From contig JAJZVA010000007.1 in the NCBI GenBank assembly GCA_021845905.1, forward strand, positions 1-64,000: 64,000 nucleotides of DNA. The letters run 5' to 3'. Below the pieces are notes generated by a model. That model had not been told where the DNA came from, did no database searches, and saw only the letters and a list, made by a program, of their open reading frames with translations. A program made the position numbers and the translations under genes. Source of the stretch: Pseudomonadota bacterium. Its GTDB lineage: Bacteria > Pseudomonadota > Alphaproteobacteria > Micavibrionales > UBA2020. Below are positions 5,795 to 63,122 of the stretch, in pieces. The stretch's first letter is position 1. Every line of letters begins with the position of its first letter.

Positions 5795-6883
5795 ATGGGT
5801 CGTCCACAGATAAAGATTTTCCGCAGGGAGCTTGCGCCGCAGTTCATCGCCGCCGCGACCAAAAAGCCCCAAAAGCTCCTGCCCCTGTTGCTCGCCGCGA
5901 CGCAGCATGTGCGCGACGCCATCCTTCTTCCTTCGGCGCAAAATCTCGACGACATTCCCATCGAGCATAAAGACACCGGCGCGCAGCGCGACGCCGACGC
6001 CAAGACCTTCACCATCATAACGGACAAACAATGCGAAGCCGAGATGGCGCGCCTCCTGTCCGCATCCTTCCCGCAGGCGCTCCTGATCAGCGAGGAAAAA
6101 TACGGCGACAGCGCGACGGCGGAAAAACAGCGCGTTCTCGATGAAGCCCTCGCGACCGACAGAATGGTCATCCTCACCGATCCGCTCGACGCGACGCGCG
6201 ACTTCCGCACCGGCGGCGACGGCTACGGGACGCTGGTCGCCGTGCTGCAAAACGGGGAGATCACCGCCGCCGTCGCCCACCGCAGCACCGATTACGCCGA
6301 CCCTTCGGGCCTCGGCCACACGCTGACCTTCGAAAAAGGCGACGGCGTGCGCCGCGACGGCCGCCTGATCTCGCCTTTGTCAGGCCGCGTTTTTCCCGAC
6401 GACACCTTAAAACTGCGCGGCTACGCGGGCGCGGAATTCATCGCCCCCATGCGCCGAAAGGGTGCCGCGGACAAAACCGGCTTTCCCGACCTTGCGGGAA
6501 AATTCGATTCCCTGAGCGACCTTTGGACGTGTAGCAAGCTTCTCGACGACCTCCTCACCGGCACGCACCATTTCGCGCTCGTGCCGCCGCCGCCCGATCT
6601 CTTCGATTACCCCGCCGCGCTCGGCCTGATCAACGCCGCCGGCGGCACGGCCAGGTTTCTCGACGGCACGCCCGCCACGTTCGCGGAGATCGTCCGCCGC
6701 CAGAATTTCGACGGCGACGACAAGGCGGCGAAAGCGCTCCTCAACACGCTGGTCTTCGCCGTGTCGGAAAACGTTTTCAAAGCGGTGCAAAAGACGGTGT
6801 GCGACGCCGCGGGTTTGACGATACCCGCCAGGCCGTCGCCGCGCGAGATACCCAAACCCCGGATCCGGGACTTGCATAAATAA
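5795..6883 (+). CDS. inositol-monophosphatase-fold phosphatase (CysQ/IMPase-like)
   Basis: The metal-binding motifs of the lithium-sensitive phosphatase superfamily are present: ISEEKYGD (Glu ligand), DPLDATRDF (the DPLDGT motif with Ala for Gly), and a third acidic site in DLFDYPAALGLINAAGG where WD is usual. Members hydrolyse inositol monophosphate or 3'(2')-phosphoadenosine nucleotides; I cannot choose between these. At 362 residues it is about 90 longer than typical CysQ, with extra N-terminal helix and a C-terminal tail. It starts four bases after the kinase gene and ends convergently with prs, nine bases away. Confidence 0.75.
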   Translation: MGRPQIKIFRRELAPQFIAAATKKPQKLLPLLLAATQHVRDAILLPSAQNLDDIPIEHKDTGAQRDADAKTFTIITDKQCEAEMARLLSASFPQALLISEEKYGDSATAEKQRVLDEALATDRMVILTDPLDATRDFRTGGDGYGTLVAVLQNGEITAAVAHRSTDYADPSGLGHTLTFEKGDGVRRDGRLISPLSGRVFPDDTLKLRGYAGAEFIAPMRRKGAADKTGFPDLAGKFDSLSDLWTCSKLLDDLLTGTHHFALVPPPPDLFDYPAALGLINAAGGTARFLDGTPATFAEIVRRQNFDGDDKAAKALLNTLVFAVSENVFKAVQKTVCDAAGLTIPARPSPREIPKPRIRDLHK

Positions 6884-6891
6884 AGTATAGA

Positions 6892-7845
6892 TCACGCCCC
6901 TGCGGGAACCACGCTGAACAGAGAAGAGACGGAACGCTCCTCGCTGATGCGCAAGACCGCCTCGCCGATCAGCGGCGCGACGGGCAGATATTTAAGCTTT
7001 TTGCAAGATTGCGCGGCGGGAGCGGCGACGATGCTGTCGGTCACCACCATTTCCGTCAGCGGCGACTTTTCGATGCGGTCTATGGCGCTGCCGGAGAGGA
7101 CGCCGTGCGTCGCGAAAGCGCGGACGGACGCCGCGCCCTCCTTGATCAGCGCCGCGGCGGCGTTGCAGATCGTGCCCGCGCTGTCCACCATGTCGTCGAT
7201 CAGGATGCACTCCTGCCCCGCGACTTCGCCGATGACGTGCATGACTTCGGAGATGCCCGCCTTCTCGCGGCGCTTGTCGATGATGGCGAGGCCTGCATCG
7301 AGCTGCTTGGCGAGCGCGCGGGCGCGCACCACGCCGCCCACGTCGGGCGAAACGACGGTCAGCGGCTTGTCCGATTTCGTCTTGCGCGCATACGGCACGA
7401 AAATCGGCGTGCCGGCGAAAAGATTGTCCACGGGAATGTCGAAGAAGCCCTGAATTTGCCCGGCATGCAGATCCAGCGTCAGCACGCGGTCGGCGCCCGC
7501 CTTGGTGATCAGGTTGGCGACGAGCTTGGCGGAGATGGGCGAGCGCGAGCCGGTCTTGCGGTCCTGCCGCGCGTAGCCGAAATAGGGCATGACCGCCGTG
7601 ATGCGCCGCGCCGAGCCACGCTTGAGCGCGTCGAACATGATCAGCATTTCCATCAGATGGTCGTTGGCGGGGGATGACGTCGACTGGAGGACGAACACGT
7701 CCTCGCCGCGCACGTTTTCCAGCACCTCGACGAAGATCTCCTGATCGGCGAACCTTTTGACGTTCACCTCCGTCAGCGGGATGCCAAGATAAGCCGACAC
7801 CGCCGCGGCGAGCGGCGGGTTGCTGGAACATGCTATCAATTTCAT
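6892..7845 (-). CDS. prs: ribose-phosphate pyrophosphokinase (PRPP synthetase)
   Basis: Makes PRPP from ribose 5-phosphate and ATP, feeding purine, pyrimidine (PyrE), His and Trp synthesis. I start at the ATG at 7845 (MKLIACSSN), which aligns with the usual family N-terminus and gives 317 residues; an ATG five codons upstream is also possible. Landmarks are [10 protein letters not shown], the catalytic flexible-loop region [10 protein letters not shown], the Mg-PRPP signature [15 protein letters not shown] and the ribose-phosphate loop [11 protein letters not shown]. Confidence 0.97.
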
Positions 7846-7934
7846 TTTTTTCTCGCCCATGGTTTTCCGGTTGCTCGTACGCGGCATTAAACTAGCCAAT
7901 TTTCAGCGGGAAAAGAAGGGCTCTTTTAACCGCT

Positions 7935-8702
7935 TCATTTTATTGAAATAATCGAGATCTGCAGCCCGAAGCCTTTTTCGCCGTTCAAAAAAGCGCGGCG
8001 GTTGCTGAAGAAATCTTCCGCGTTCATGCGCGTATCCTGCCCGACGTCATGGATCGTTTCCACGCCCGCAAGCTTCAGCCGGTGCGCCACATAACCCGGC
8101 AGATTGAAGATCTGGTGCCCCTGTCTCGGCGCGGCCCTGAAGAAACGGGCGTTCCCCGCGTCCTGCGCCATGAACGGCAGGGTGAAGTCGTCGCTCACCT
8201 CGTATGAATCCGCGCCGATGCAAGGGCCGATGGCGACGGCGATGTCTTCGGGCGGCGCGCCGCGCTTTTTCAGCGTCGCGACCATTTCCTCCGGCATGCC
8301 GCCGAGCGCGCCTTTCCATCCGGCATGGCACGCGCCGACGATCTTCCTGCTTTTGGAGGCGAACAGCACCGGCACGCAATCCGCGGTGAGAACGCCGAGC
8401 CCCATGCTGCTTTCCAGCGTCACCATTCCGTCGGCTTCCGGCGCGTTCTTCGGCACCCACGGCTTTCTGACCGTCACCGCCTTGGCGCTGTGCGTCTGCC
8501 GCGCGATGACGAGCCGGTCGGAAGCGATCTCGAGCGCCGCCGCCGCGCGCGCGCGGTTGGCGCGCACGTTGGCCAGCTTGTCGTCTTTCTTGAATCCGCA
8601 GTTGAGAGAATCATACAGCCCCTTGCTGACGCCGCCGTGACGGGTGAAGAACCCGTGCCGCACCCAGGGTATGGAGGAAAGGTCAGTCGTCAGATACTTC
8701 AT
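7935..8702 (-). CDS. pgeF: peptidoglycan editing factor PgeF (YfiH/laccase-domain family)
   Basis: Zn-dependent enzyme of the DUF152/YfiH family; characterised members clear mis-built peptidoglycan precursors, and older annotations call them polyphenol oxidase. Expected metal and active-site residues are visible in RQTHSAKAV, LTADCVPVLFA and GACHAGWKGALGG. The ATG at 8702 has GGGAG six bases upstream, better than the earlier TTG at 8720. At 255 residues the length is normal. It overlaps the 3' end of the methyltransferase gene by 20 bp, so the two are translationally coupled behind lgt. Confidence 0.9.
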   Translation of the reverse strand: MKYLTTDLSSIPWVRHGFFTRHGGVSKGLYDSLNCGFKKDDKLANVRANRARAAAALEIASDRLVIARQTHSAKAVTVRKPWVPKNAPEADGMVTLESSMGLGVLTADCVPVLFASKSRKIVGACHAGWKGALGGMPEEMVATLKKRGAPPEDIAVAIGPCIGADSYEVSDDFTLPFMAQDAGNARFFRAAPRQGHQIFNLPGYVAHRLKLAGVETIHDVGQDTRMNAEDFFSNRRAFLNGEKGFGLQISIISIK

Positions 8703-9846
8703 GCGCGTCTCCCTCGGCAAGCGCGAAGCCTGCCGGATGGATGCGGGCTTTGCGCGGCGTTAACGCAAGAACCTTGAACAGCCGCCCCATTTCCTTGGGC
8801 GCGACGAGGCGGCAGAGCGCCGTCATGATGTCCTCGCGCTGTTTTTCCGTGGCGTTTTCGCACAACTTCTGCGCCCGCGCCTCGATGCCGAGGCCGATCA
8901 AAAACGAACCCTGCGTCACCGGCCCCGCAACGGCGGCATGCTGCGCCGCGACCGCCTTGAGCGTGCCGAAATCGACGTGCGCGGTGATGTCGCGCAGGCC
9001 CGGCTCTTCCAGCACGTCGGCGTATTCATGCCGCGACACCGCCTGCAGCGTGTCGCCCAGCCCGGCTTCGGCGTGGCCGTAATCGAGGAACAATGCCGCG
9101 CCGCCCCCTGCGCCCTGCGCGTCCGGATCATTTCGCGCGATGCGCTCCGACACCTGCTTCACGATCTCCAGCGACGGAGGGCTGATCTCGAAAACGCTGC
9201 CTTCGGGCGCGTTCAGGAAATCCTCCGGCATCATGCCGTCGAGCGTGAATTCCAGCGGCGCGGTGGTGAAGAAAAAAGCGTCATGCTCGGCATCGTAATC
9301 GACGCGCCGCTCGCGCCAGCCGTCTTTGGTCTTTTTCAACTGGTGTATCGGCAGCGCGTCGAAGAACTCGTTGGCGACGACGAAGCAAACGCCTTCCGGC
9401 ACCTCGGAAAAATTCTCGTGCCAGGTCGCGGGATAATCCTTCAGCGCGGCCGCCTGCAATTCCCTGAGGCGCGGGCTGGTCTCGACCAGATGCAGCGTCA
9501 GCGCGTTTTTGAAATCCGGCCAGCTGGAAACCGTGCGCATGACGTCCGCCGCGAGCGTGCCTCTGCCGGGGCCGAGCTCGACCAGCTTCACGTTTTCCGG
9601 CCTGCCCATCTGCATCCACATGTCAACGAGCCATGCGCCGATCATCTCGCCGAACATCTGGCTGATCTCCGGCGCGGTGGTGAAATCGCCCTTCGCGCCG
9701 AACGGCTCCTGCGTCTCATAATAGGCGGAAACCGCGCGCGCCATGTATTCCGCAACCGTCAGCGGCCCGCGCGCCGCGATGTCGTCCGCGAGCGCGTCGT
9801 GCACGGGGTTGGCCCCTTTAAGCTTTCTTTTGACGTTTTCTTGCAT
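8683..9846 (-). CDS. class I SAM-dependent methyltransferase, MidA/NDUFAF7 family
   Basis: A homologue of the mitochondrial complex I assembly methyltransferase NDUFAF7 (MidA), which methylates an Arg of a complex I subunit. The bacterial role is less settled. Visible marks are GDFTTAPEISQMFGEMIGAW, the SAM loop ELGPGRGTLAADV, and LFLDYGHAE. The start is the ATG at 9846, giving 387 residues and a 29-bp overlap with the end of lgt; the TTG at 9867 is an alternative. The gene order lgt, this gene, pgeF on one strand is a frequent alphaproteobacterial operon. Confidence 0.87.
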   Translation of the reverse strand: MQENVKRKLKGANPVHDALADDIAARGPLTVAEYMARAVSAYYETQEPFGAKGDFTTAPEISQMFGEMIGAWLVDMWMQMGRPENVKLVELGPGRGTLAADVMRTVSSWPDFKNALTLHLVETSPRLRELQAAALKDYPATWHENFSEVPEGVCFVVANEFFDALPIHQLKKTKDGWRERRVDYDAEHDAFFFTTAPLEFTLDGMMPEDFLNAPEGSVFEISPPSLEIVKQVSERIARNDPDAQGAGGGAALFLDYGHAEAGLGDTLQAVSRHEYADVLEEPGLRDITAHVDFGTLKAVAAQHAAVAGPVTQGSFLIGLGIEARAQKLCENATEKQREDIMTALCRLVAPKEMGRLFKVLALTPRKARIHPAGFALAEGDAHEVSDD

Positions 9847-10633
9847 AGTGAATGATGTAAAGCCCAATGAAGATCATCGGCAGCGACAGCACCTGCCCCA
9901 TGGTGAAATATTGAAGGATGAACCCGATCTGCGGATCCGGCTCGCGGAAAAACTCGACGAAGAAGCGGCAAAGGCCGTAGCCCGTCACGAACATGCCGAA
10001 CAGCAGGCCTTCGGTGTGGCGGACGGCTTTCTTGCGCGCGGCGAGATAAAGCACGGTGAAAAGGCAGATGCCTTCAAGGAACGCCTCGTAAAGCTGGCTG
10101 GGATGGCGCGGCAGCGGCCCGCCCTGCGGAAAGACCATCGCCCACGGCACGGTCGTCACGCGGCCGAACAGCTCGCCGTTGATGAAGTTGGCGATGCGCC
10201 CGAAGAACAATCCGATCGGCGTCACGCAGGCGAGGATGTCGCCCAGCGCCCATGCCGAAAACTTGTGCTTGCGCGCATAGAGCGCGACAACGGCGATCAC
10301 GCCCAGCAATCCGCCATGGAACGACATGCCGCCTTCCCAGATCGCCGGAATGCGCAAGGGGTGCGCCATGTAATAGTCGAAGTTGTAGAACAGCACGTAG
10401 CCCGTGCGCCCGCCGAGAATCACGCCGAGCACGAGCAGCGGCAAAACGTTGTCGATATCCTCGCGGTTCGGGCGGCGCCCCGGATCGCGGTCGCAAATGC
10501 GCCCCGCGTAATACCAGCCGCCGAGAAATCCGGTGAGATACGCCAGCGCGTACCAGCGGATGCCCGGAATGCCGTACTTGACGAGAAACGGAATATGAAC
10601 GGCAATCGGGTCTATATTGGGATAAGGGATCAT
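9818..10633 (-). CDS. lgt: prolipoprotein diacylglyceryl transferase
   Basis: Transfers diacylglycerol from phosphatidylglycerol to the lipobox Cys of prelipoproteins, in the inner membrane. The 271-residue protein is multi-spanning and carries the Lgt signature GRIANFINGELFGR, the conserved periplasmic loop with MSFHGGLLG, and HPSQLYEA. The window encodes at least two candidate substrates, the lipoproteins at 21.1 and 40.4 kb. It leads the lgt-midA-pgeF operon. The ribosome site in front of the ATG is weak. Confidence 0.96.
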   Translation of the reverse strand: MIPYPNIDPIAVHIPFLVKYGIPGIRWYALAYLTGFLGGWYYAGRICDRDPGRRPNREDIDNVLPLLVLGVILGGRTGYVLFYNFDYYMAHPLRIPAIWEGGMSFHGGLLGVIAVVALYARKHKFSAWALGDILACVTPIGLFFGRIANFINGELFGRVTTVPWAMVFPQGGPLPRHPSQLYEAFLEGICLFTVLYLAARKKAVRHTEGLLFGMFVTGYGLCRFFVEFFREPDPQIGFILQYFTMGQVLSLPMIFIGLYIIHYARKRQKKA

Positions 10634-53435: not shown

Positions 53436-53531
53436 AAGGCTCCGGCGTTTTGTTACCGCGCGAAAAATAATGCGTAACCCCGGCGTAACCCGAAGATTTT
53501 TTTAAATTCCCGAATATGCGTTGAGCGCTTG

Positions 53532-53550
53532 AAAAATGGTGCCAGACGCG
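53532..53550. repeat. attL candidate (imperfect copy of tRNA-Phe 3' end)
   Basis: AAATGGTGCCAGACGCG at 53534-53550 matches 63044-63061 (AAATGGTGCCCAGACGCG) with a single C missing. The match covers the CCA end and acceptor strand of tRNA-Phe. To the right the sequence departs into a hairpin GCGCT/AGCGC. The short, imperfect match keeps confidence moderate. Confidence 0.55.
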
Positions 53551-53697: not shown

Positions 53698-54042
53698 TCA
53701 AGCCGCCGCCATCGCCCCTTGCACGATTTCTTCCATGTTCAATTTTTCCTGTTTGAACAGGGCACGGAAGACAAGATTCAGATTGTGCAGGCTTGGATTG
53801 CCCTTGTTGCTAAACATTTGCATGAGGCTTTTGTCGGGGATACCCGTTTTCTCCGCCAGCTTCTGAAAGCCCAGCGTTGCATTGATATAGTCGCGGATAC
53901 CGGAGCGCCCAATAAATACATCCTCATCATCCCTGCCGAGCATGAGATGGATAAAGCCGTTCACAAGCATAAGCTGGCGAAATTCCTTATCTGCCTTGGC
54001 GCGCTCGATCACAGTTTCCCTGAAACTGCGAGTAATGGGCAT
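53698..54042 (-). CDS. HigA-like antitoxin, helix-turn-helix
   Basis: A 114-residue DNA-binding antitoxin of the addiction-module antidote group. The N-terminal MPITRSFRETVIERAKADKEF and the segment LRDYINAT-like IRDYINATLGFQKLAEKTG followed by PDKSLMQMFSNKGNPSLHNL form the HTH with the family's characteristic GNP. It follows the toxin gene by 84 bp on the same strand, the usual toxin-first order of this class. It would neutralise the toxin and repress the operon. Confidence 0.78.
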   Translation of the reverse strand: MPITRSFRETVIERAKADKEFRQLMLVNGFIHLMLGRDDEDVFIGRSGIRDYINATLGFQKLAEKTGIPDKSLMQMFSNKGNPSLHNLNLVFRALFKQEKLNMEEIVQGAMAAA

Positions 54043-54126: not shown

Positions 54127-54441
54127 TTAATTATTTTCCTTATATTCTTGCCAAAGTTCCTTGGCCTTCGCAATATCACGATCTTGGCGGGTCTTTGAGC
54201 CTCCCGCCAGAAGGATAACAAGCTCGTCGCCGTCCTTGCCGAAATAAACGCGAAGCACAGGATTGTGAATACGATGCTCAAACACCCCACCGCCAACGCT
54301 TTTATAATCTCCGAGATTCCCCGCTTCCATGCGGCGTATGGCCTGCACCACTTTATCCGCATGTTGCGCAGACAGGGCGAGAAACCACTTTCTAAAATGG
54401 TTTTTTCCGTTCTCGCTTTCGTATTCGACAACTTCGGTCAT
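54127..54441 (-). CDS. RelE/HigB-superfamily toxin (Gp49-like)
   Basis: A 104-residue toxin of the phage-derived Gp49/HigB group, expected to be a ribosome-dependent mRNA endonuclease. Family pattern: FRKWFLALSAQHADKVVQAIRRMEAGN, then GGGVFEHRI and LRVYFGKDGDELVILLAGG, then SKTRQDRDIAKAKELWQEY. GAGGAT precedes the ATG by about ten bases. It begins only about 45 nt beyond the end of the tracrRNA on the same strand. The pair probably stabilises the island. Confidence 0.8.
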   Translation of the reverse strand: MTEVVEYESENGKNHFRKWFLALSAQHADKVVQAIRRMEAGNLGDYKSVGGGVFEHRIHNPVLRVYFGKDGDELVILLAGGSKTRQDRDIAKAKELWQEYKENN

Positions 54442-54487: not shown

Positions 54488-54587
54488 AAATAGGGGATGT
54501 TCCGAAGAACAGAGCCCCACGCGTTTACAAGAAAAACTTGTAACCTTATCATAGCAACATTCCCGACACGGCTATGCTATGTGCGTA
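54488..54587 (-). ncRNA. tracrRNA of the type II-C system
   Basis: On the - strand an anti-repeat runs from 54581 to 54548. Its first 20 nt are identical to the + strand of the CRISPR repeat, so they pair perfectly with a crRNA made from the array's - strand. A 6x6 internal loop follows, then GCTATGAT pairs with the first 8 nt of the repeat (one G-U). After AAGG come a 7-bp hairpin TTACAAG/CTTGTAA (54525-54543) and a second hairpin GGGG...CCCC with a GTTC-TTCG-GAAC tip (54493-54518), then a short T-rich end. A perfect TTGACA stands at 54622-54617 on the - strand with a weak -10 near 54599. Ends are estimates. Confidence 0.88.
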
Positions 54588-54662: not shown

Positions 54663-57600
54663 ATGGGATATATTCTGGGGCTTGATGTAGGTATTGCGTC
54701 CACTGGTTTTGCCGGAGTAACGCCCGAAAAACAAAAAATTGATTTCACGGGCGTCCATATTTTTGACTCCGCTGAAAATCCGAAAGATGGTTCTTCTCTC
54801 GCCCTGCCGCGCCGTAAGGCGCGGGGTTTACGGCGCGTTATTCGCCGCCGCGCACAACGTAAAAACAATATCCGCAAGCTGCTTTTAAAATGCGGTTTTA
54901 GCAAACAGGCAGTTGATAGTATTGATTCCTCTCGAACAGAAAATATCTCCGATGTTTGGCAACTGCGCGAAGACGCCTTGAAAAGAAAATTAACCGACTC
55001 GGAATTTGCGCATGTCCTGTTTCATATCGCCAAAAGACGCGGTTTTCAATCAAACAGCAAAAAAGCCGCCGAGAATGACACGGAAGGGAAAAAAGCCCTT
55101 GAAGGCTCCAAGCATCTTCAGGAAAGAATGACTGAAGCTGGCGCAAGAACGATAGGCGCATTTTTAGCAACACAAGACAAGAAAAGAAACGGGCATGGCT
55201 CATACGAAAATTTTGTTGTCCGCAGTCTTTTGCGCGAGGAAGTAAGAGAAATTTTCAGGCAACAGGAAAAATTCGGACAGGATAAGGCTACCCCCGCCCT
55301 GCAAGAAAAATATGAACAAATCGCGTTCACGCAGCGCCCGCTTCAATCCAGTGAAAAACTCGTGGGCTTTTGCTCTCTTGAAGAAAATATAGGTAACAAA
55401 GTAAAACGCGCCCCCAAGTTTTCTTACTCCGCAGAGCTTTTTGTCTTGTGGTCAAAGCTGAATAATCTGCGCATTAAAGAATACGGCGGCAGCGAACGCC
55501 CCTTGACCCAAGATGAAAAAAATCAAGTCGCTGAGCTGGCACATAAAAACAAAGACGTGAAATACAAACAAGTCAGAAAACTTCTCGGCATGACCGATGA
55601 GGAACGCTTTAATATCAGCTATAGAAAGACGGATGACAAAGAGTCGGATTGGGAAAAGATCAGGGATTCCGTGGAAGGCCGTTCCGTATTCATGGCTTTG
55701 AAGGGATATCATGCCCTGAAAGACGCCTTGGGACACAGTGAAACGGACTGGCAAAGATGGATTGGCAAAGATATTGAAAAACTGGACGAGATTGCGCGGG
55801 TTTTATCATTTCACGAAGACAGCGAAGAAATAGAAAAACTGCTTTCGGGCATTGGCGTAAACGCCACAGACAGGCAAGCATTGTCAAAAGTAACAGACTT
55901 TAAAAAGTCTATAGACATTTCAGCAAAAGCGGCACGTAAAATCCTCCCCTTCATGAAACAGGGCATGACGTATGATAAAGCCTGTGAAGCAGCGGGATAT
56001 AGTAAGCAGGAAAACAAGGGACTTCGCTTTGTTCCAAAATTCGATTCAACTCGTAATCCTGTTGTTGACCGCTCTTTGTCTCAAGTCCGAAAAGTTGTTA
56101 ATGCAATCATTCGCAGACATGGCCTGCCGGAAACTATCATTGTTGAAGTTGCAAGCGAACTCGGAAAATCTTTTCAAGACCGCAGAGACCTTGACAAAAT
56201 CAGGGCAAAAAACCAGAAAAACAAAGAAGACGCCGCAAAACACGCGGAAGAAATCTTAGGCCATGAGCCGAATGGCGAGGAACTCCTGAAATATCGCCTG
56301 TGGATGGAGCAAAAAGGATTTTGCATTTATAGCGGCGAGGAAATCAGGCCGGAATTGTTGCGCGATCCTGTCGCAACTCAAATTGACCATATATTGCCTT
56401 ATAGCCGTTCATACGATGACAGCTACATGAACAAAGTTTTGTGCTTTACGGATGAAAACCAGAGAAAAGGCAATAAAACCCCGTATGAATATCTTAAGGG
56501 CACGCAAGCATGGGAAGCGCTGGAAAATAATTTTGCGCGGCAATTGCCCCGCGCCAAAGCCGAACGCCTCTTGATGCAGGATTTTGACGCGGAGAAAGAA
56601 GATAAATGGAAATCCCGCCACTTGAATGATACGCGCTATATCACGCGCCTGCTTAAAAACCATCTTGAAAACAGCCTTGACCTTGGCAAAGGCAACCGTG
56701 TCCAGACCCGCAACGGCGCATTGACGGCACACCTGCGCGGCGCATGGGGTTTCCCCGATAAAAACCGCAGCAATGACAGGCACCATGCGCTTGATGCTAT
56801 CGTTCTGGCCTGTTCAACGCAAAGCATGGTGCAAAAACTGACAAACTGGAATAAATACGAAGCCCGCAAGAAAAATCCAGCTGAAAGGCCGCGCCCGCCT
56901 TTGCCGTGGGAAGGCTTCCGCGAAACGGCCAAGGAAAAGATAGACGGTATATTCGTTAGCCGGATGCCGTACCGGAAAATCACGGGACAGGTGCATGAGG
57001 AAACGATCCGCAGCATACGCCACAATGATGACGGGCAGCGCATAGCCGTGCAAAAAGTGCGTTTGACGGCATTAAAACCCGCCATGCTCGAAAATCTTGT
57101 GGACAAGGACGGGCGCAACGAAAACCTTTATAAAATACTCAAAGCCCAATTGGACGAACACAAGGGCGATCCGCAAAAAGCATTTGCGGAACCCGTCAAA
57201 CTCGTCGGCAAAGGCGGAGAAGAAAAAGCCGCCATCGTCAATTCCGTGCGCATTGTCACAAATGAAAAAAGCGGCGTCGAAGTAAATGAAGGGTTGGCTA
57301 GCAACGGCAACATGATTCGAGTGGATGTATTTAGAAAGGACAGCAAGTATCATCTTGTTCCTATATATGTTCATCACTGTGCCATGACAGCCCTTCCAAA
57401 TCGTGCGATTGTTGCCTTTAAGCCAGAGGATGAATGGACTGATGTGAGCGATGCAGAGTTTCTTTTTAGTCTTTATAAAAATGACTATGTACGGATAAAA
57501 AGCAAAAAAGAAGAAGTTGAAGGATATTATTTTGGAACCCATCGCGGGACTGGGAATATCAATATTCGCGCTCACGATAGAGACCCTTCTTTTGGCAAGG

Positions 57601-57782
57601 GCGGAGACAAAGAGGGGTTGGGAGTAAAAACACTTCTTCTATTTGAAAAATACACCGTGAATTACTTTGGAGAAAAGCACAAGGTGAAGGGGGAAAAACG
57701 TCTTGGCTTGGCGAAATCTGCTCGTGCAAAATCCGGCGCGTCTGTCGCTGAAAAACGCACAGTTGCAACTGGAGAACGATGA
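54663..57782 (+). CDS. cas9: CRISPR-associated endonuclease Cas9, type II-C
   Basis: RNA-guided DNA endonuclease of 1039 residues, in the compact II-C size range. RuvC-I is YILGLDVGIASTG (Asp8). An Arg-rich bridge helix lies at about residues 49-77. RuvC-II is IIVEVASELGKS (Glu495). The HNH domain has QIDHILPYSRS (Asp575, His576) and DENQRKGNKTP (Asn599). RuvC-III is DRHHALDAIVLAC (His708, Asp711). All catalytic residues are present, so both nuclease sites should work. The C-terminal PAM-reading part is divergent. The start at 54663 has AAGGA eight bases upstream; the frame extends 28 codons back into the tracrRNA and is not used. The last 80 bp overlap cas1. Confidence 0.97.
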   Translation: MGYILGLDVGIASTGFAGVTPEKQKIDFTGVHIFDSAENPKDGSSLALPRRKARGLRRVIRRRAQRKNNIRKLLLKCGFSKQAVDSIDSSRTENISDVWQLREDALKRKLTDSEFAHVLFHIAKRRGFQSNSKKAAENDTEGKKALEGSKHLQERMTEAGARTIGAFLATQDKKRNGHGSYENFVVRSLLREEVREIFRQQEKFGQDKATPALQEKYEQIAFTQRPLQSSEKLVGFCSLEENIGNKVKRAPKFSYSAELFVLWSKLNNLRIKEYGGSERPLTQDEKNQVAELAHKNKDVKYKQVRKLLGMTDEERFNISYRKTDDKESDWEKIRDSVEGRSVFMALKGYHALKDALGHSETDWQRWIGKDIEKLDEIARVLSFHEDSEEIEKLLSGIGVNATDRQALSKVTDFKKSIDISAKAARKILPFMKQGMTYDKACEAAGYSKQENKGLRFVPKFDSTRNPVVDRSLSQVRKVVNAIIRRHGLPETIIVEVASELGKSFQDRRDLDKIRAKNQKNKEDAAKHAEEILGHEPNGEELLKYRLWMEQKGFCIYSGEEIRPELLRDPVATQIDHILPYSRSYDDSYMNKVLCFTDENQRKGNKTPYEYLKGTQAWEALENNFARQLPRAKAERLLMQDFDAEKEDKWKSRHLNDTRYITRLLKNHLENSLDLGKGNRVQTRNGALTAHLRGAWGFPDKNRSNDRHHALDAIVLACSTQSMVQKLTNWNKYEARKKNPAERPRPPLPWEGFRETAKEKIDGIFVSRMPYRKITGQVHEETIRSIRHNDDGQRIAVQKVRLTALKPAMLENLVDKDGRNENLYKILKAQLDEHKGDPQKAFAEPVKLVGKGGEEKAAIVNSVRIVTNEKSGVEVNEGLASNGNMIRVDVFRKDSKYHLVPIYVHHCAMTALPNRAIVAFKPEDEWTDVSDAEFLFSLYKNDYVRIKSKKEEVEGYYFGTHRGTGNINIRAHDRDPSFGKGGDKEGLGVKTLLLFEKYTVNYFGEKHKVKGEKRLGLAKSARAKSGASVAEKRTVATGER

Positions 57783-58608
57783 AGGGGTTTTTTCTGTCGC
57801 AGTCGAGGACTTAACCTGCGTCATACTGGAAAGCCATCATATCACTGTCAGCACGGCTTTGCTGGCAAGCTGTCAGGAACAGGGCGTTTGCATCGTCACG
57901 TGTGATTCCGCGCATACCCCGAATGGCGTTTTGCATCCCTTTCATGAACATTCACGGCAAAGCAAGGTTGCTCATTTACAAATCGGCTGGTCAGAACCTT
58001 TCAAAAAACGCTGCTGGCAATCCATTATAAAAACTAAAATAACAGGGCAAGCGGACGTGCTTGAAATATATGGCGACAAAAACGCCGCAAAGGCTCTCCG
58101 CGCCATGCGCCAGCATGTCACGTCCGGCGACGAAAAAAACGTGGAAGCGCAGGCAGCGCGGGAATATTGGCAAAATCTTTTCGGCTCTGATTTCCGCCGT
58201 CATGCAACGGACACTATTAACGGCGCTTTGAACTACGGCTACGCCATCATGCGGGCGTCCATTGCCAGATCGGTTGTAAGTTTTGGGCTGTTGCCCGCTT
58301 TCGGTCTGCACCATGACAGCGATCTCAACGCCTTCAATCTTGCAGATGATGTTATAGAAGTGTTTCGCCCATTCGTGGACAATCAGGTTAAAACAATGCA
58401 ACTGGCGGGCGATCTGTCGCAAAATGAACTGTCAAAAGAAAATCGCCAGAAACTGGCGGGCATTTTGACAACAACCTGCATGTTGTCGCAGGAAGTGCAT
58501 ACGCTGATGAACGCTTCGGACAAAGTTGCGGAAAGGCTGGTTGTCGCTATCGAGAAAAAAGACCCGCAGGAAATGATCTTTCCCGAAATCCAAAAAACCC
58601 TGCTATGA
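57703..58608 (+). CDS. cas1: CRISPR integrase Cas1, type II
   Basis: Metal-dependent integrase that inserts new spacers with Cas2. The start is a TTG at 57703, supported by GAAGGGGG nine bases upstream and by the family N-terminus MAWRNLLVQNPARLSLK; it lies 80 bp inside cas9 in another frame. The product is 301 residues. Expected active-site residues are Glu148 in VEAQAAREYW, His203/His204 in FGLHHDSDLNAFNLADD, and an acidic residue in DDVIEVFRPFVD (215-219). It overlaps the cas2 start by four bases (ATGA). Confidence 0.95.
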   Translation: MAWRNLLVQNPARLSLKNAQLQLENDEGVFSVAVEDLTCVILESHHITVSTALLASCQEQGVCIVTCDSAHTPNGVLHPFHEHSRQSKVAHLQIGWSEPFKKRCWQSIIKTKITGQADVLEIYGDKNAAKALRAMRQHVTSGDEKNVEAQAAREYWQNLFGSDFRRHATDTINGALNYGYAIMRASIARSVVSFGLLPAFGLHHDSDLNAFNLADDVIEVFRPFVDNQVKTMQLAGDLSQNELSKENRQKLAGILTTTCMLSQEVHTLMNASDKVAERLVVAIEKKDPQEMIFPEIQKTLL

Positions 58609-58934
58609 CGGCGGCACAGGATAGATTTATGTGGCTTTTTGTGTTCTTTGATCTCCCCGTCAAATCAAAAGAGGAACGTCATACAGCAACGCGCTTTCGG
58701 AATTTTTTGCTGAAGGACGGCTATATGATGATTCAGTTTTCGGTCTATGCACGTGTCTGCAACGGTCAAGAAAGAGTTGACAAACACCTTTCAAGATTGC
58801 ATAATTCAATACCCTCAAAAGGCAGCGTCAGGGCGATTCAAATCACTGACAAGCAATATGAGCGCATGAAGATTCTGATCGGAAAACAGAAGATTCGCGA
58901 AAAAACAAAGACCGAACAGCTCCTTTTGTTTTGA
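58605..58934 (+). CDS. cas2: CRISPR-associated protein Cas2
   Basis: Small ferredoxin-fold partner of Cas1, 109 residues. The first strand MWLFVFFDLPVKSKEER carries the conserved Asp (residue 16), and RFRNFLLKDGYMMIQFSVYARVC is typical. The stop codon lies inside the stem of the terminator that follows. There is no csn2 or cas4 gene, which with the Cas9 size defines subtype II-C. Confidence 0.94.
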   Translation: MTAAQDRFMWLFVFFDLPVKSKEERHTATRFRNFLLKDGYMMIQFSVYARVCNGQERVDKHLSRLHNSIPSKGSVRAIQITDKQYERMKILIGKQKIREKTKTEQLLLF

Positions 58935-58950
58935 ACTGCTCGGTCTTTTT
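58908..58950. terminator. bidirectional terminator between cas2 and the array
   Basis: GACCGA-A-CAG (58910-58919) pairs with CTG-C-TCGGTC (58936-58945). Five T follow on +, and an A-rich run precedes it on + (T-rich on the - strand). It can stop the rightward cas transcript and the leftward crRNA transcript. Confidence 0.82.
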
Positions 58951-58981
58951 CTAAGTAATATCAAATCATTACAGTGTATGT

Positions 58982-60601
58982 ATCATAGCATAGCCGTGTC
59001 GGGGGGGAAGCTATGACATATCAACGATACCCGCATAATATTGTATAATCATAGCATAGCCGTGTCGGGGGGGAAGCTATGACATTCCAGACAAGACAGG
59101 TGCAGCCACTGACATCATAGCATAGCCGTGTCGGGGGGGAAGCTATGACCCCTCCGACAAGCGGGGATTCCAGCTTGGAATCATAGCATAGCCGTGTCGG
59201 GGGGGAAGCTATGACGCACCACAGGAAATGCACGTACACACGACGATCATAGCATAGCCGTGTCGGGGGGGAAGCTATGACCCGTTGGCATGGTGTACGG
59301 CCTCATATCCAATCATAGCATAGCCGTGTCGGGGGGGAAGCTATGACTTCCGTTCTCAATGCTCTATTTTACAAGCAATCATAGCATAGCCGTGTCGGGG
59401 GGGAAGCTATGACTGTCGGGTTCGCTTTATCAATACCTCCCCTATCATAGCATAGCCGTGTCGGGGGGGAAGCTATGACCATTCGACATAGGCCTGCACG
59501 CCTCCCTGCATCATAGCATAGCCGTGTCGGGGGGGAAGCTATGACACCAGTTCACCTTGCAGGATATGGCACCAGATCATAGCATAGCCGTGTCGGGGGG
59601 GAAGCTATGACATTTCAGGCAGAATATGATAGAATGTTTCAATCATAGCATAGCCGTGTCGGGGGGGAAGCTATGACGTAGAGCTTGCTGCGATTGAAGT
59701 AGTACCTATCATAGCATAGCCGTGTCGGGGGGGAAGCTATGACGCATCACAGGAACCGCCATGCTGTTGCCGGATCATAGCATAGCCGTGTCGGGGGGGA
59801 AGCTATGACGCTTTAGCCATTTTAGTTTCCTTCGATAGAATCATAGCATAGCCGTGTCGGGGGGGAAGCTATGACGTACGGCTAACCGTATTGACACGAG
59901 TTCCGATCATAGCATAGCCGTGTCGGGGGGGAAGCTATGACTAGCGGAGTCGGCGATCTTGACATCGTTGAATCATAGCATAGCCGTGTCGGGGGGGAAG
60001 CTATGACCTCTGTAAGCCTTTGGCACTAATAAGTGTAATCATAGCATAGCCGTGTCGGGGGGGAAGCTATGACTACACGGAAAAGGATCTGGTTGTGCAG
60101 ATTATCATAGCATAGCCGTGTCGGGGGGGAAGCTATGACCAGCGTCTGCATTTGCGTCCAGTGGAGCGAATCATAGCATAGCCGTGTCGGGGGGGAAGCT
60201 ATGACGATCATTTGCTACGCCTGTCGGCATTTGAAATCATAGCATAGCCGTGTCGGGGGGGAAGCTATGACGCAACGCCCCGAATTCCTTGCTGGCAATT
60301 CATCATAGCATAGCCGTGTCGGGGGGGAAGCTATGACGTGTTTTGATTGACTTGCCGTTGTAGGTCTATCATAGCATAGCCGTGTCGGGGGGGAAGCTAT
60401 GACATCCATCAGGCCGAAGGTCAGAAGAAATTGATCATAGCATAGCCGTGTCGGGGGGGAAGCTATGACAAAGCGGGGAGGGGTCTTTTCAAAAAATCGA
60501 TCATAGCATAGCCGTGTCGGGGGGGAAGCTATGACCTCTCGACATTCGCCTCGATCAGTTCCTTGATCATAGCATAGCCGTGTCGGGGGCGAAGCTATGA
60601 T
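58982..60601 (-). CRISPR. CRISPR array, 25 repeats and 24 spacers
   Basis: Repeats of 36 bp recur every 66 bp, so spacers are 30 bp. On + each begins ATCATAGCATAGCCGTGTCG, then has seven G in a row, and ends AAGCTATGAC. The last copy (60566-60601) is degenerate, with a C inside the G-run and a final T. Pairing with the tracrRNA shows that crRNAs come from the - strand: repeat 5' end GTCATAGC, 3' end TGCTATGAT. That 3' end resembles an extended -10 (TGnTATAAT), so each repeat may start its own transcript about 6-7 nt into the next spacer, leaving roughly 24 nt of guide. Spacers are all different. Confidence 0.98.
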
Positions 60602-60662
60602 GCACAAATGCTCCTGAATCTGAATGACCGGACAGTTTGACACCACCGACACCCTCACGCCG

Positions 60663-61088
60663 TCAGATTGAATGTTTCTCATCATGAACTTTTTCTGTTT
60701 GTTTCTTTCTCGCCCTTGCCGCCCCGCTACGCTTGCCAAGTTCTGACATGGTTTGCCGGATCATTTCTTTTTGAAATTCTTCGTCACTCATGGATTCATA
60801 TGGATCGGAAGCGTCTGTTTCGTCATCGTCAACTGTTGTTTCAACCGTTGCGGAGCCGTTCGACGGCGATTTCTTTTCCGGTTTTTTGCCGCTTTTGACA
60901 ACCGCATAAACGGCATACACTGCCAACCCGAGAACGCCGACAAAAAGCCAAGCCGGATTAATAGCTGTCTTCAATGCTTCCAGAAACGCGGGCTGTTTTT
61001 CAGTTTGCTGAATAGAGCCACTTATACTGTTATTAAAGCCGCCGCCTGTGCTGCCGTTCATACCGTTACCAATTCCATTATATATCAT
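60663..61088 (-). CDS. single-helix membrane protein of the island, unknown
   Basis: A 141-residue protein with a Gly/Asn-rich N-terminus (MIYNGIGNGMNGSTGGG), one hydrophobic helix at about residues 46-65 (PAWLFVGVLGLAVYAVYAVV), an acidic Ser/Asp-rich stretch, and a C-terminal basic helical tail (GKRSGAARARKKQTEKV). I recognise no family. It lies between the degenerate end of the CRISPR array and the AlpA-like gene, on the same strand, and its transcript would run into the array. Confidence 0.55.
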   Translation of the reverse strand: MIYNGIGNGMNGSTGGGFNNSISGSIQQTEKQPAFLEALKTAINPAWLFVGVLGLAVYAVYAVVKSGKKPEKKSPSNGSATVETTVDDDETDASDPYESMSDEEFQKEMIRQTMSELGKRSGAARARKKQTEKVHDEKHSI

Positions 61089-61106
61089 GATACTTCCCTT
61101 TCCTGA

Positions 61107-61328
61107 TTAACCGTTAAAATCTGCGGGGCGGCTTTCGTGAATACGCGCTGTCATCCATGCGTTAATTTCACTTTCAAGCCAACCGACAGAACGCGCCCCC
61201 AAACTCACGGGACGAGGGAATATGCCGTTTGAAATATTCAAATAGATCGTGCTGCGGCTTAAGCCTGTGCGAGCTTTTACGTCCGCCAGTCTTAGGAACC
61301 GTTCTTTGTTTGTGATGTCTGTGTTCAT
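61107..61328 (-). CDS. AlpA-family regulator / excisionase-like protein
   Basis: A 73-residue winged-helix protein. ERFLRLADVKARTGLSRSTIYLNISNGIFPRPVSLG is split here as RLADVKARTGLSRSTIY and ISNGIFPRPVSLG, followed by VGWLESEINAWM, the Phage_AlpA signature. Such proteins control integrase expression or assist excision. The ATG at 61328 has AGGAAGGA four bases upstream; the frame extends further without a better start. It is next to the integrase and the AACCGTT cluster, a likely target. Confidence 0.85.
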   Translation of the reverse strand: MNTDITNKERFLRLADVKARTGLSRSTIYLNISNGIFPRPVSLGARSVGWLESEINAWMTARIHESRPADFNG

Positions 61329-61469
61329 AGCGTCCTTCCTGATCTTGTTAATCGCAAATTTATTTTGCCCTTTCATCATGAAAGAAAATGTAGCTTATTC
61401 ACACGGGTCAAAACGCAGGTCAAAACGCATTCCAAGCGCTACCCCAAGAACTGATATAATGATTTAATG

Positions 61470-61623: not shown

Positions 61624-62883
61624 TTACGCTTTTTTGCGGAATTTTCCGGCAATAATTTTTCCATCCGCCGCAATCTTATCAATATAGTCCGCCCATTCCT
61701 GCATCATCTTCCGGCGCTGGGGCAAATACTCGGCGCGGTTATAGGCGGCACGGATTTTGTTGCGCTCGGAGTGCGCCAGTTGCCTCTCGATAACATCCGG
61801 CGGATACCCCTGCTCGTTCAATGTCGTGGACGCAAGGGCACGGAATCCATGGCCTACCATTTTCCCTTCATAGCCCATGCGTTTAATCACCATGTTTATC
61901 GTGTTCTCACTCATAAGCATATGTTTCCGGTGCTGTTGCGGCGGAAACAGAAATTCGCGGTGTCCGCTTATTTTGTGCAGTTCCTTGAACAATTCAATGG
62001 CCTGCTTGGAAAGTGGAACAATATGCTCGTCGCGCATTTTTGTGATTTCCGCCGGAAGCCGCCATTCCTTGGCCTCAAGGTCAACGTCTTTCCATGTCGA
62101 TTTCCGCAGTTCTCCGGTGCGGACAAACGTCAACAGCATAAGTCGGATAGCAAGCTTATTTTGCAATGTGGTTTTCGCCTCATCCAGCCGTTGCAGAAAT
62201 TCCGGAAGTTCCTTGGCCGTGATTGCCGGATAATTTTTGGCCTTATGCGGTTTCAGGGCGCGTCCATCCCGCAAAGGATAGGCGGGATTAATCGCCATGC
62301 GCTCGGTCACAATGGCATAGTTGAAAATGGAGCTGGCCGTTTGCAAGACGCGGTGCGAAACTTCCGTCCCGCCGCGCCGTTTCAGGTGCCCGTCCCCGCG
62401 TGTAATTTTCTGGGTTTCAACCTTCCTGATCGTATTCAGCAGTTCCAGCGTGGAAATGTCGGCTATCGGACGTTTGCCCAGTTCCGCGATAAGATGGATT
62501 TCAATGCGCCGCCAGAGCCTGTCCGCATGTTCCGGCGTCCATTTGGACTTGTTGTTCTCAAACCATTCCTTGGCTACCCCCTCAAAGGTGTTTTCCGCAT
62601 TGAAAACGGCGCGGCGCTTTTCTTCCTGCTTGGCCGCGCCGGGGTCTATGCCGTTGGCAAGGGCTTTACGTGCCTCATGGCGCTTGTCGCGTGCCTCGGC
62701 CAGCGAAATTTCAGGGTAAGCGCCCAGCGCCAGCATCTTTTCTTTGCCAAGGACGAAATACCGGAATCGCCAGAACTTCCTGCCTTTGGGCGTCACCTGC
62801 AAATAAAGCCCGTCCCCGTCCGCAAGGCGGTACATTTTGGCCTTGGGCTTGGCGCTCTTGATCTTTAATTCCGTTAATTGCAT
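61624..62883 (-). CDS. int: tyrosine site-specific integrase
   Basis: A 419-residue integrase of the P4/DUF4102 group that uses tRNA genes as targets. The N-terminal arm-binding domain has LADGDGLYLQVTPKGRKFWRFRY. The catalytic domain has Arg in LTFVRTGELRKSTWKDVD, His-x-x-Arg in HGFRALASTTLNEQG, a second His in QLAHSERNKIRAAYNRAEY and the Tyr nucleophile in that last block. AGGAGA lies five bases before the ATG. It starts 164 bp from the 3' end of tRNA-Phe, the typical geometry. It appears intact. Confidence 0.94.
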   Translation of the reverse strand: MQLTELKIKSAKPKAKMYRLADGDGLYLQVTPKGRKFWRFRYFVLGKEKMLALGAYPEISLAEARDKRHEARKALANGIDPGAAKQEEKRRAVFNAENTFEGVAKEWFENNKSKWTPEHADRLWRRIEIHLIAELGKRPIADISTLELLNTIRKVETQKITRGDGHLKRRGGTEVSHRVLQTASSIFNYAIVTERMAINPAYPLRDGRALKPHKAKNYPAITAKELPEFLQRLDEAKTTLQNKLAIRLMLLTFVRTGELRKSTWKDVDLEAKEWRLPAEITKMRDEHIVPLSKQAIELFKELHKISGHREFLFPPQQHRKHMLMSENTINMVIKRMGYEGKMVGHGFRALASTTLNEQGYPPDVIERQLAHSERNKIRAAYNRAEYLPQRRKMMQEWADYIDKIAADGKIIAGKFRKKA

Positions 62884-63042: not shown

Positions 63043-63061
63043 GAAATGGTGCCCAGACGCG
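63043..63061. repeat. attR candidate within the 3' end of tRNA-Phe
   Basis: This is the stretch matched by the attL candidate. It covers the CCA end and the acceptor strand of the tRNA gene plus a few bases beyond, and the tRNA stays intact. Confidence 0.55.
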
Positions 63062-63122
63062 GATTTGAACCACGGACACGATGATTTTCAGTCATCTGCT
63101 CTACCAACTGAGCTATCTGGGC
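63047..63122 (-). tRNA. tRNA-Phe (GAA)
   Basis: A 76-nt gene with encoded CCA. The acceptor GCCCAGA pairs perfectly with TCTGGGC. The D-arm contains AGCTCAGTTGGTAGAGC, the anticodon loop is CTGAAAA with GAA, and the T-arm reads GTGGTTCAAATCCGC. The 3' end points towards the integrase, as expected for an integration target. Confidence 0.97.

Follow-up and report, generated by a model that had tools for sequence, protein, structure and literature searches.

Promoter-like repeat ends in a type II-C CRISPR array on an integrase island of a Micavibrio-like alphaproteobacterium

The 64,000-nucleotide stretch of DNA that we analysed (the window) carries a compact CRISPR-Cas locus in which cas9 (54663-57782, encoding 1039 amino acids) is followed on the plus strand by cas1 (57703-58608) and cas2 (58605-58934), the latter two belonging to type II families. 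All three genes were identified by Pfam and PADLOC scans, in the case of cas9 together with the open reading frame list; neither csn2 nor cas4 was found in these three sources, and the open reading frame list holds no extra gene between cas2 and the CRISPR array. A tracrRNA (54490-54585, ends approximate) lies on the minus strand, divergent from cas9. Its anti-repeat to the crRNA repeat (54549-54581, minus) is followed by TAAGG and two stem-loops, and co-folding of the repeat with the anti-repeat gave -53.2 kcal/mol. This gene content and this tracrRNA place the locus in type II-C; an extended -10 motif at the crRNA-strand 3' end of all 25 repeats, conserved in relatives, fits a II-C array with repeat-embedded promoters. 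An anti-repeat upstream of cas9, on the same strand as in the window, was found at 36 of the 42 array loci compared below. The best Cas9 matches came from a Proteobacteria bacterium (96%), an Alphaproteobacteria bacterium (81%) and a Micavibrio sp. (57%), in line with a Micavibrio-like order for the window. The window's genome also encodes a second, distant Cas9 (G000:C8:62012-66476, 6013-10489 of locus L125; 1088 amino acids, 37% identical in part), followed only by a short Cas1-like start overlapping part of an integrase gene. The 18 kb examined around it hold neither cas2 nor an array with at least three copies, and the gene looks like an orphan Cas9.

The cas genes and the array are carried by an integrase island of 9.5 kb in tRNA-Phe, with a low-GC stretch beginning at about 53.5 kb. 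A tyrosine integrase (61624-62883, minus, Pfam) lies beside the tRNA-Phe gene (63047-63122, minus), the 3' end of which holds the right attachment-site copy (63047-63061). The left copy, TGGTGCCAGACGCG (53537-53550), was identified by eye, once the end of homology given below was known, and is a base shorter than its counterpart in the tRNA; the two differ by one base, and a search for an exact repeat of the tRNA attachment site of at least 13 bases found none. Homology with two relatives breaks off at this other end, at 53531-53534. Between the attachment sites, the island also carries an AlpA-family regulator (61107-61379, minus, Pfam) and ORF141 (60663-61088, minus; 141 amino acids, no Pfam family), which shares the strand of the array transcripts and lies just upstream of the array, as well as a 114-amino-acid open reading frame (53698-54042, minus) and a Gp49-family gene (54127-54441, minus) beside the tracrRNA, which we take to be a possible toxin-antitoxin pair. 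The attachment-site pair recurs in two genus-mates with a shared variant of their own, AGAGGCG (in G004, the halves lie on two contigs). At the same tRNA-Phe site in G005 (L169, G005:C33:31500-50000), an integrase 90% identical to the one in the window accompanies other cargo, including E1-E2-like and HNH proteins, and no Cas9 match was found in that genome. This difference in cargo suggests that the island may be mobile. As seen at L169, the tRNA-Phe site appears to be a cargo-swapping site.

The array (58982-60601) consists of 25 repeats of 36 bp with a period of 66 bp, enclosing 24 spacers of 30 nt. The crRNAs are assigned to the minus strand because the minus-strand tracrRNA body follows the anti-repeat, and since the three cas genes are encoded on the opposite strand, transcription of the array runs head-on towards cas2. 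This bears out the first-pass annotation, which had the array opposing the cas genes and transcribed towards cas2. The minus-strand sequence of the repeat is GTCATAGCTTCCCCCCCGACACGGCTATGCTATGAT, with TGCTATGAT at the 3' end of 25/25 copies, at 58982-58990 and then every 66 bp, which confirms an earlier claim that every repeat ends one mismatch away from TGnTATAAT (TGNTATAAT). Sites within one mismatch of TGNTATAAT number 54 in the window, against 14.7 expected, 25 of them being the repeats and one lying in the tracrRNA, where the 9-mer TGCTATGAT recurs at 54548-54556. The 5' and 3' ends of the repeat are, moreover, near-perfect inverted repeats in the window. Given this recurrence and this inversion, the window by itself is no proof of a promoter, as structure could yield the same motif. 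The window's hexamer, TATGAT, differs from the consensus hexamer; a promoter scan found no array-wide -35 partner, and purines at spacer positions 5, 6 and 7 (10, 13 and 11 of 24 spacers, counted by eye) show no excess.

Searches for spacer targets, which could have supplied a PAM as an independent check of the strand, yielded little. The array matched three weak phage records, joined spacers searched against 94 related genomes hit nothing beyond the array itself and some short, weak stretches (best E 0.002), and two spacer patterns had no match in viral contigs. Spacer 12 (59810-59839, minus) resembles a gene start (GGAAACTAAAATGGCTAAA) and gave repeated weak matches in many genomes. None of the 10 spacers of the closest relative (L009, with a 96% identical Cas9) is shared with the 24 in the window, so array polarity cannot be read from old spacers.

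To ask whether the motif is a promoter, we compared repeats among relatives, which allows promoter function to be told apart, from sequence alone, from constraints imposed by Cas1-Cas2 or the tracrRNA. Class-level Cas9 matches came from 57 genomes, 40 of which were taken in; order-level matches came from 19 genomes, of which 17 others were used along with the other Cas9 locus found in the window's genome, G091 being omitted as weak. After removal of 3 duplicates, 17 loci without an array of at least three copies and 2 with partial repeats (20 or 27 nt), 64 loci left 42 arrays beside Cas9 relatives, with 37 distinct repeats; these are related, and so do not amount to 37 independent events. TA occupies positions 31-32 in all 37, and TANNNT stands at the crRNA-strand end of 35, the exceptions being L091 (TATAAC) and L128 (TATACC), whereas the mirror test, in which the reverse complement of the 5' end was scored, gave 0/37. 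The T, A and T of TANNNT correspond to positions -12, -11 and -7 in a -10 element. The three bases between TA and T vary, yielding 14 different hexamers among the 37 repeats, and a TG precedes this region, as in an extended -10, in 22/37. One GC-rich group ends in TAGGCT or TAGGTT, which would be a weak -10. Where symmetry with the 5' end would not lead one to expect TA (24 repeats), TA was present in 24/24 and TANNNT in 23/24, and TANNNT was likewise kept in 20/21 repeats without inverted ends (at most 4 of 9 identities), so symmetry does not explain it. Nor does pairing with the tracrRNA, since the best anti-repeat match excludes at least the last six repeat bases at 15/42 loci (13 distinct repeats, by eye), and 12 of these 13 repeats retain TANNNT (by eye). 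The comparison thus supports the reading of the repeat end as a probable extended -10, which the first-pass annotation had advanced from the window.

Among the fetched Cas9 loci, a related integrase was found within the fetched stretch at only one other, namely that of the additional Cas9 in the window's genome. Relatives that have no such integrase near cas share the motif, which makes the repeat promoter a trait of II-C systems rather than of mobile copies. The earlier suggestion that autonomous guides suit an element moving between hosts consequently stands only in part: the locus does lie on an integrase island in tRNA-Phe, but the promoter is not tied to mobility.

To look at other phyla, we used plasmid-borne Cas9 records, for which 62 matches were obtained and 10 examined; three Pasteurella and two Neisseria records were deliberately left out. 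Two of the ten had no array, one was type II-A (csn2) and the other seven were used. TANNNT ends the repeats of Ilyobacter (TGTTACAAT), Subdoligranulum (TGGTATAAT), Pigmentibacter (TGATATGCT) and Limnohabitans (GTCTAGACT), that is, 4/4, as against 0/3 for the Bacteroidota Persicobacter, Phocaeicola and Prevotella. The latter repeats (L188, L190 and L192), a sample of three related sequences, instead share TTG at positions 2-4 and TAnnTTT at positions 24-30, followed by G in two of the three.

The two ends of the array differ. On the cas2 side lies a leader (58938-58981) that is conserved in relatives, unlike the distal flank, and is the probable site of spacer acquisition: across 37 systems the summed information of the cas2-array flank was 8.2 bits over 30 columns, compared with 0.0 bits for the distal flank (29 flanks). 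The cas2-distal repeat (60566-60601, minus) is degenerate, an 'extra' repeat that departs from the others at positions 1 and 12 but has its promoter-like 3' end intact, and would serve the oldest spacer. Together, the conserved cas2-side flank and the degenerate distal repeat suggest that new spacers enter beside cas2, at the end of transcription. Acquisition at the transcriptional end of II-C arrays is described in the available parts of two papers (PMC12080349, PMC8092290), the accessible text of the former (Feussner et al. 2025) giving the last repeat as the acquisition site and each repeat its own promoter. The same text has the II-C extra repeat mutated mostly within its first 15 nt, and already proposes promoter function as the reason why the repeat end is kept. 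Our counts agree with this bias. The first repeat was mutated in 16 of 41 arrays with 36-nt repeats, some of which are cut by a contig end so that their 'first' repeat may not be terminal, and the 73 mutations fell 60 times at positions 1-15, 12 times at 16-27 and once at 28-36 (circular-shift control about 1e-4). Two further mutated first repeats, in Ilyobacter and Subdoligranulum, have their last 9 bases unchanged. In the Phocaeicola distal repeat, one of three changes falls in the predicted -7 motif, which counts against promoter retention, and the intact inner end of a terminal repeat could also stem from decay proceeding outside-in from the array edge.

A terminator-like hairpin with T-tracts on both strands (58905-58950) overlaps the leader. 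It could end transcription of the array on the minus strand and of the cas operon on the plus strand, or, given T-tracts both ways, may just end the cas operon. In a home-made terminator scan, with shuffles that preserve single-base composition only, array-strand hairpins of this kind were found in 17/37 cas2-side flanks, against 2/27 distal flanks and 0-5/37 in shuffles; on the cas strand the count was 6/37 cas2-side flanks. These numbers refer to the leader side, whereas the terminators analysed in the available text of PMC12080349 lie upstream of the array. Several of the array-strand leader hairpins are no more than about 15 nt away from the last repeat.

Could the array instead be expressed mainly as a single long pre-crRNA that reads in from the alpA-ORF141 side and is then processed by RNase III and the tracrRNA, the -10-like repeat ends staying silent? 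We consider this unlikely. ORF141, alpA and the integrase are all oriented towards the array, ORF141 being a possible source of read-through transcripts; a scan of the minus strand over 60602-61400 found no terminator match, and none lies between ORF141 and the array. The host also carries one RNase III gene (rnc) above the family cut-off, and the repeat pairs strongly with the anti-repeat. That scan, however, was equally devoid of promoter matches, with no sigma-70-like minus-strand site ahead of the array, and a long pre-crRNA leaves the conserved TANNNT and its retention in the first repeat unexplained while putting the newest spacers last in the transcript. Such a transcript can, in any case, coexist with repeat promoters.

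A still more remote reading, to which we attach very little weight, is that TANNNT is a Cas1-Cas2 recognition element on the side of the repeat that faces the leader, or else a side effect of the terminal inverted repeat, and that its likeness to a -10 is accidental. The motif does face the conserved leader, and the inverted ends and the copy of TGCTATGAT in the tracrRNA would fit. Yet the cas2-distal repeat, which is not the expected site of acquisition, still keeps the TANNNT bases, as do nearly all repeats without inverted ends (see above), and the three Bacteroidota arrays beside Cas9 replace TANNNT by elements at the -33/-7 spacing of their own phylum.

We thus consider it highly likely that this type II-C locus of a Micavibrio-like alphaproteobacterium has an extended -10 in each repeat that starts each crRNA inside its spacer. 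RNA polymerase would begin about 5-7 nt into the next spacer, giving every crRNA a ready-made 5' end and a guide of about 23-26 nt; the roughly 24-nt guides predicted earlier agree with a 30-nt spacer less these nucleotides. Transcription would run from the old, cas2-distal end to the leader beside cas2, where new spacers would enter, so that with a promoter per repeat each spacer could be expressed alone and a new one used although last in line. The host genome encodes one RpoD, with RIPVHMIETINKL near the extended -10 reader, presumably the segment in which sigma-70 reads the TG. Having this RpoD and rnc, the host could use the promoter route as well as trimming by RNase III, and crRNA 3' ends may be formed by RNase III with the tracrRNA or by no processing at all; the independence from RNase III put forward in the first-pass annotation would thus be one of two possibilities.

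A promoter in each repeat is a design already known from Neisseria, Campylobacter and Clostridium cellulolyticum, and the new part here is mainly the comparative support. The Neisseria meningitidis repeat ends in TGCTACAAT, and its II-C array reportedly gives 'processing-independent' crRNAs, a description said to be that of Zhang et al. 2013. Later papers, in their available parts, likewise ascribe to it a promoter in each repeat and only cas9, cas1 and cas2; the locus studied here differs in its -10 (TATGAT), its alphaproteobacterial host and its position on an integrase island. In the accessible text on Campylobacter jejuni II-C (Dugar et al. 2013, PMC3656092), repeats similarly end in an extended -10 (GGTAAAAT) of different sequence, with starts mapped by dRNA-seq at spacer position 5; despite these promoters RNase III is used there, with its action on crRNA 3' ends shown. 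For Clostridium cellulolyticum H10, the sections available (PMC7038990) report a II-C array transcribed opposite to the cas genes, describe the last nine repeat nucleotides as extended -10-like, and give 23-26 nt of spacer per crRNA, albeit in another phylum and with RNA measured in E. coli.

Turning to Bacteroidota, the promoter consensus given in the available part of PMC7366714 is TAnnTTTG at -7 with TTTG near -33. If TTG and TAnnTTT both hold in the repeats, transcripts would start near repeat position 35, which predicts testable promoters in Bacteroidota II-C repeats. Only TTG is named in repeats in the accessible text for F. columnare (PMC8092290) and F. psychrophilum (PMC10309648), a promoter in repeats is reported as absent in that for R. 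anatipestifer (PMC5006608), and no description of a -7 element in II-C repeats was found in the available parts of the open-licence literature searched. Tentatively, then, the II-C repeat promoter might follow the main sigma factor of the host, with a terminal TANNNT in most phyla and, in Bacteroidota, TTG at 2-4 together with TAnnTTTG at 24-31, and the leader at the 3' end of transcription might double as a terminator of array transcripts; the tests behind the phylum contrast and the leader terminator are small or home-made. No additional Bacteroidota cas9 locus came to light when plasmids and viral contigs were searched at the protein level. Single Bacteroidota-like II-C repeat starts were seen at 14 of 15 viral-contig loci (L193-L207), with three copies in L197, and some of the viral repeat starts carry TAnnTTTG (L195, L196). 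The single viral repeats could be decoy repeats or remnants.
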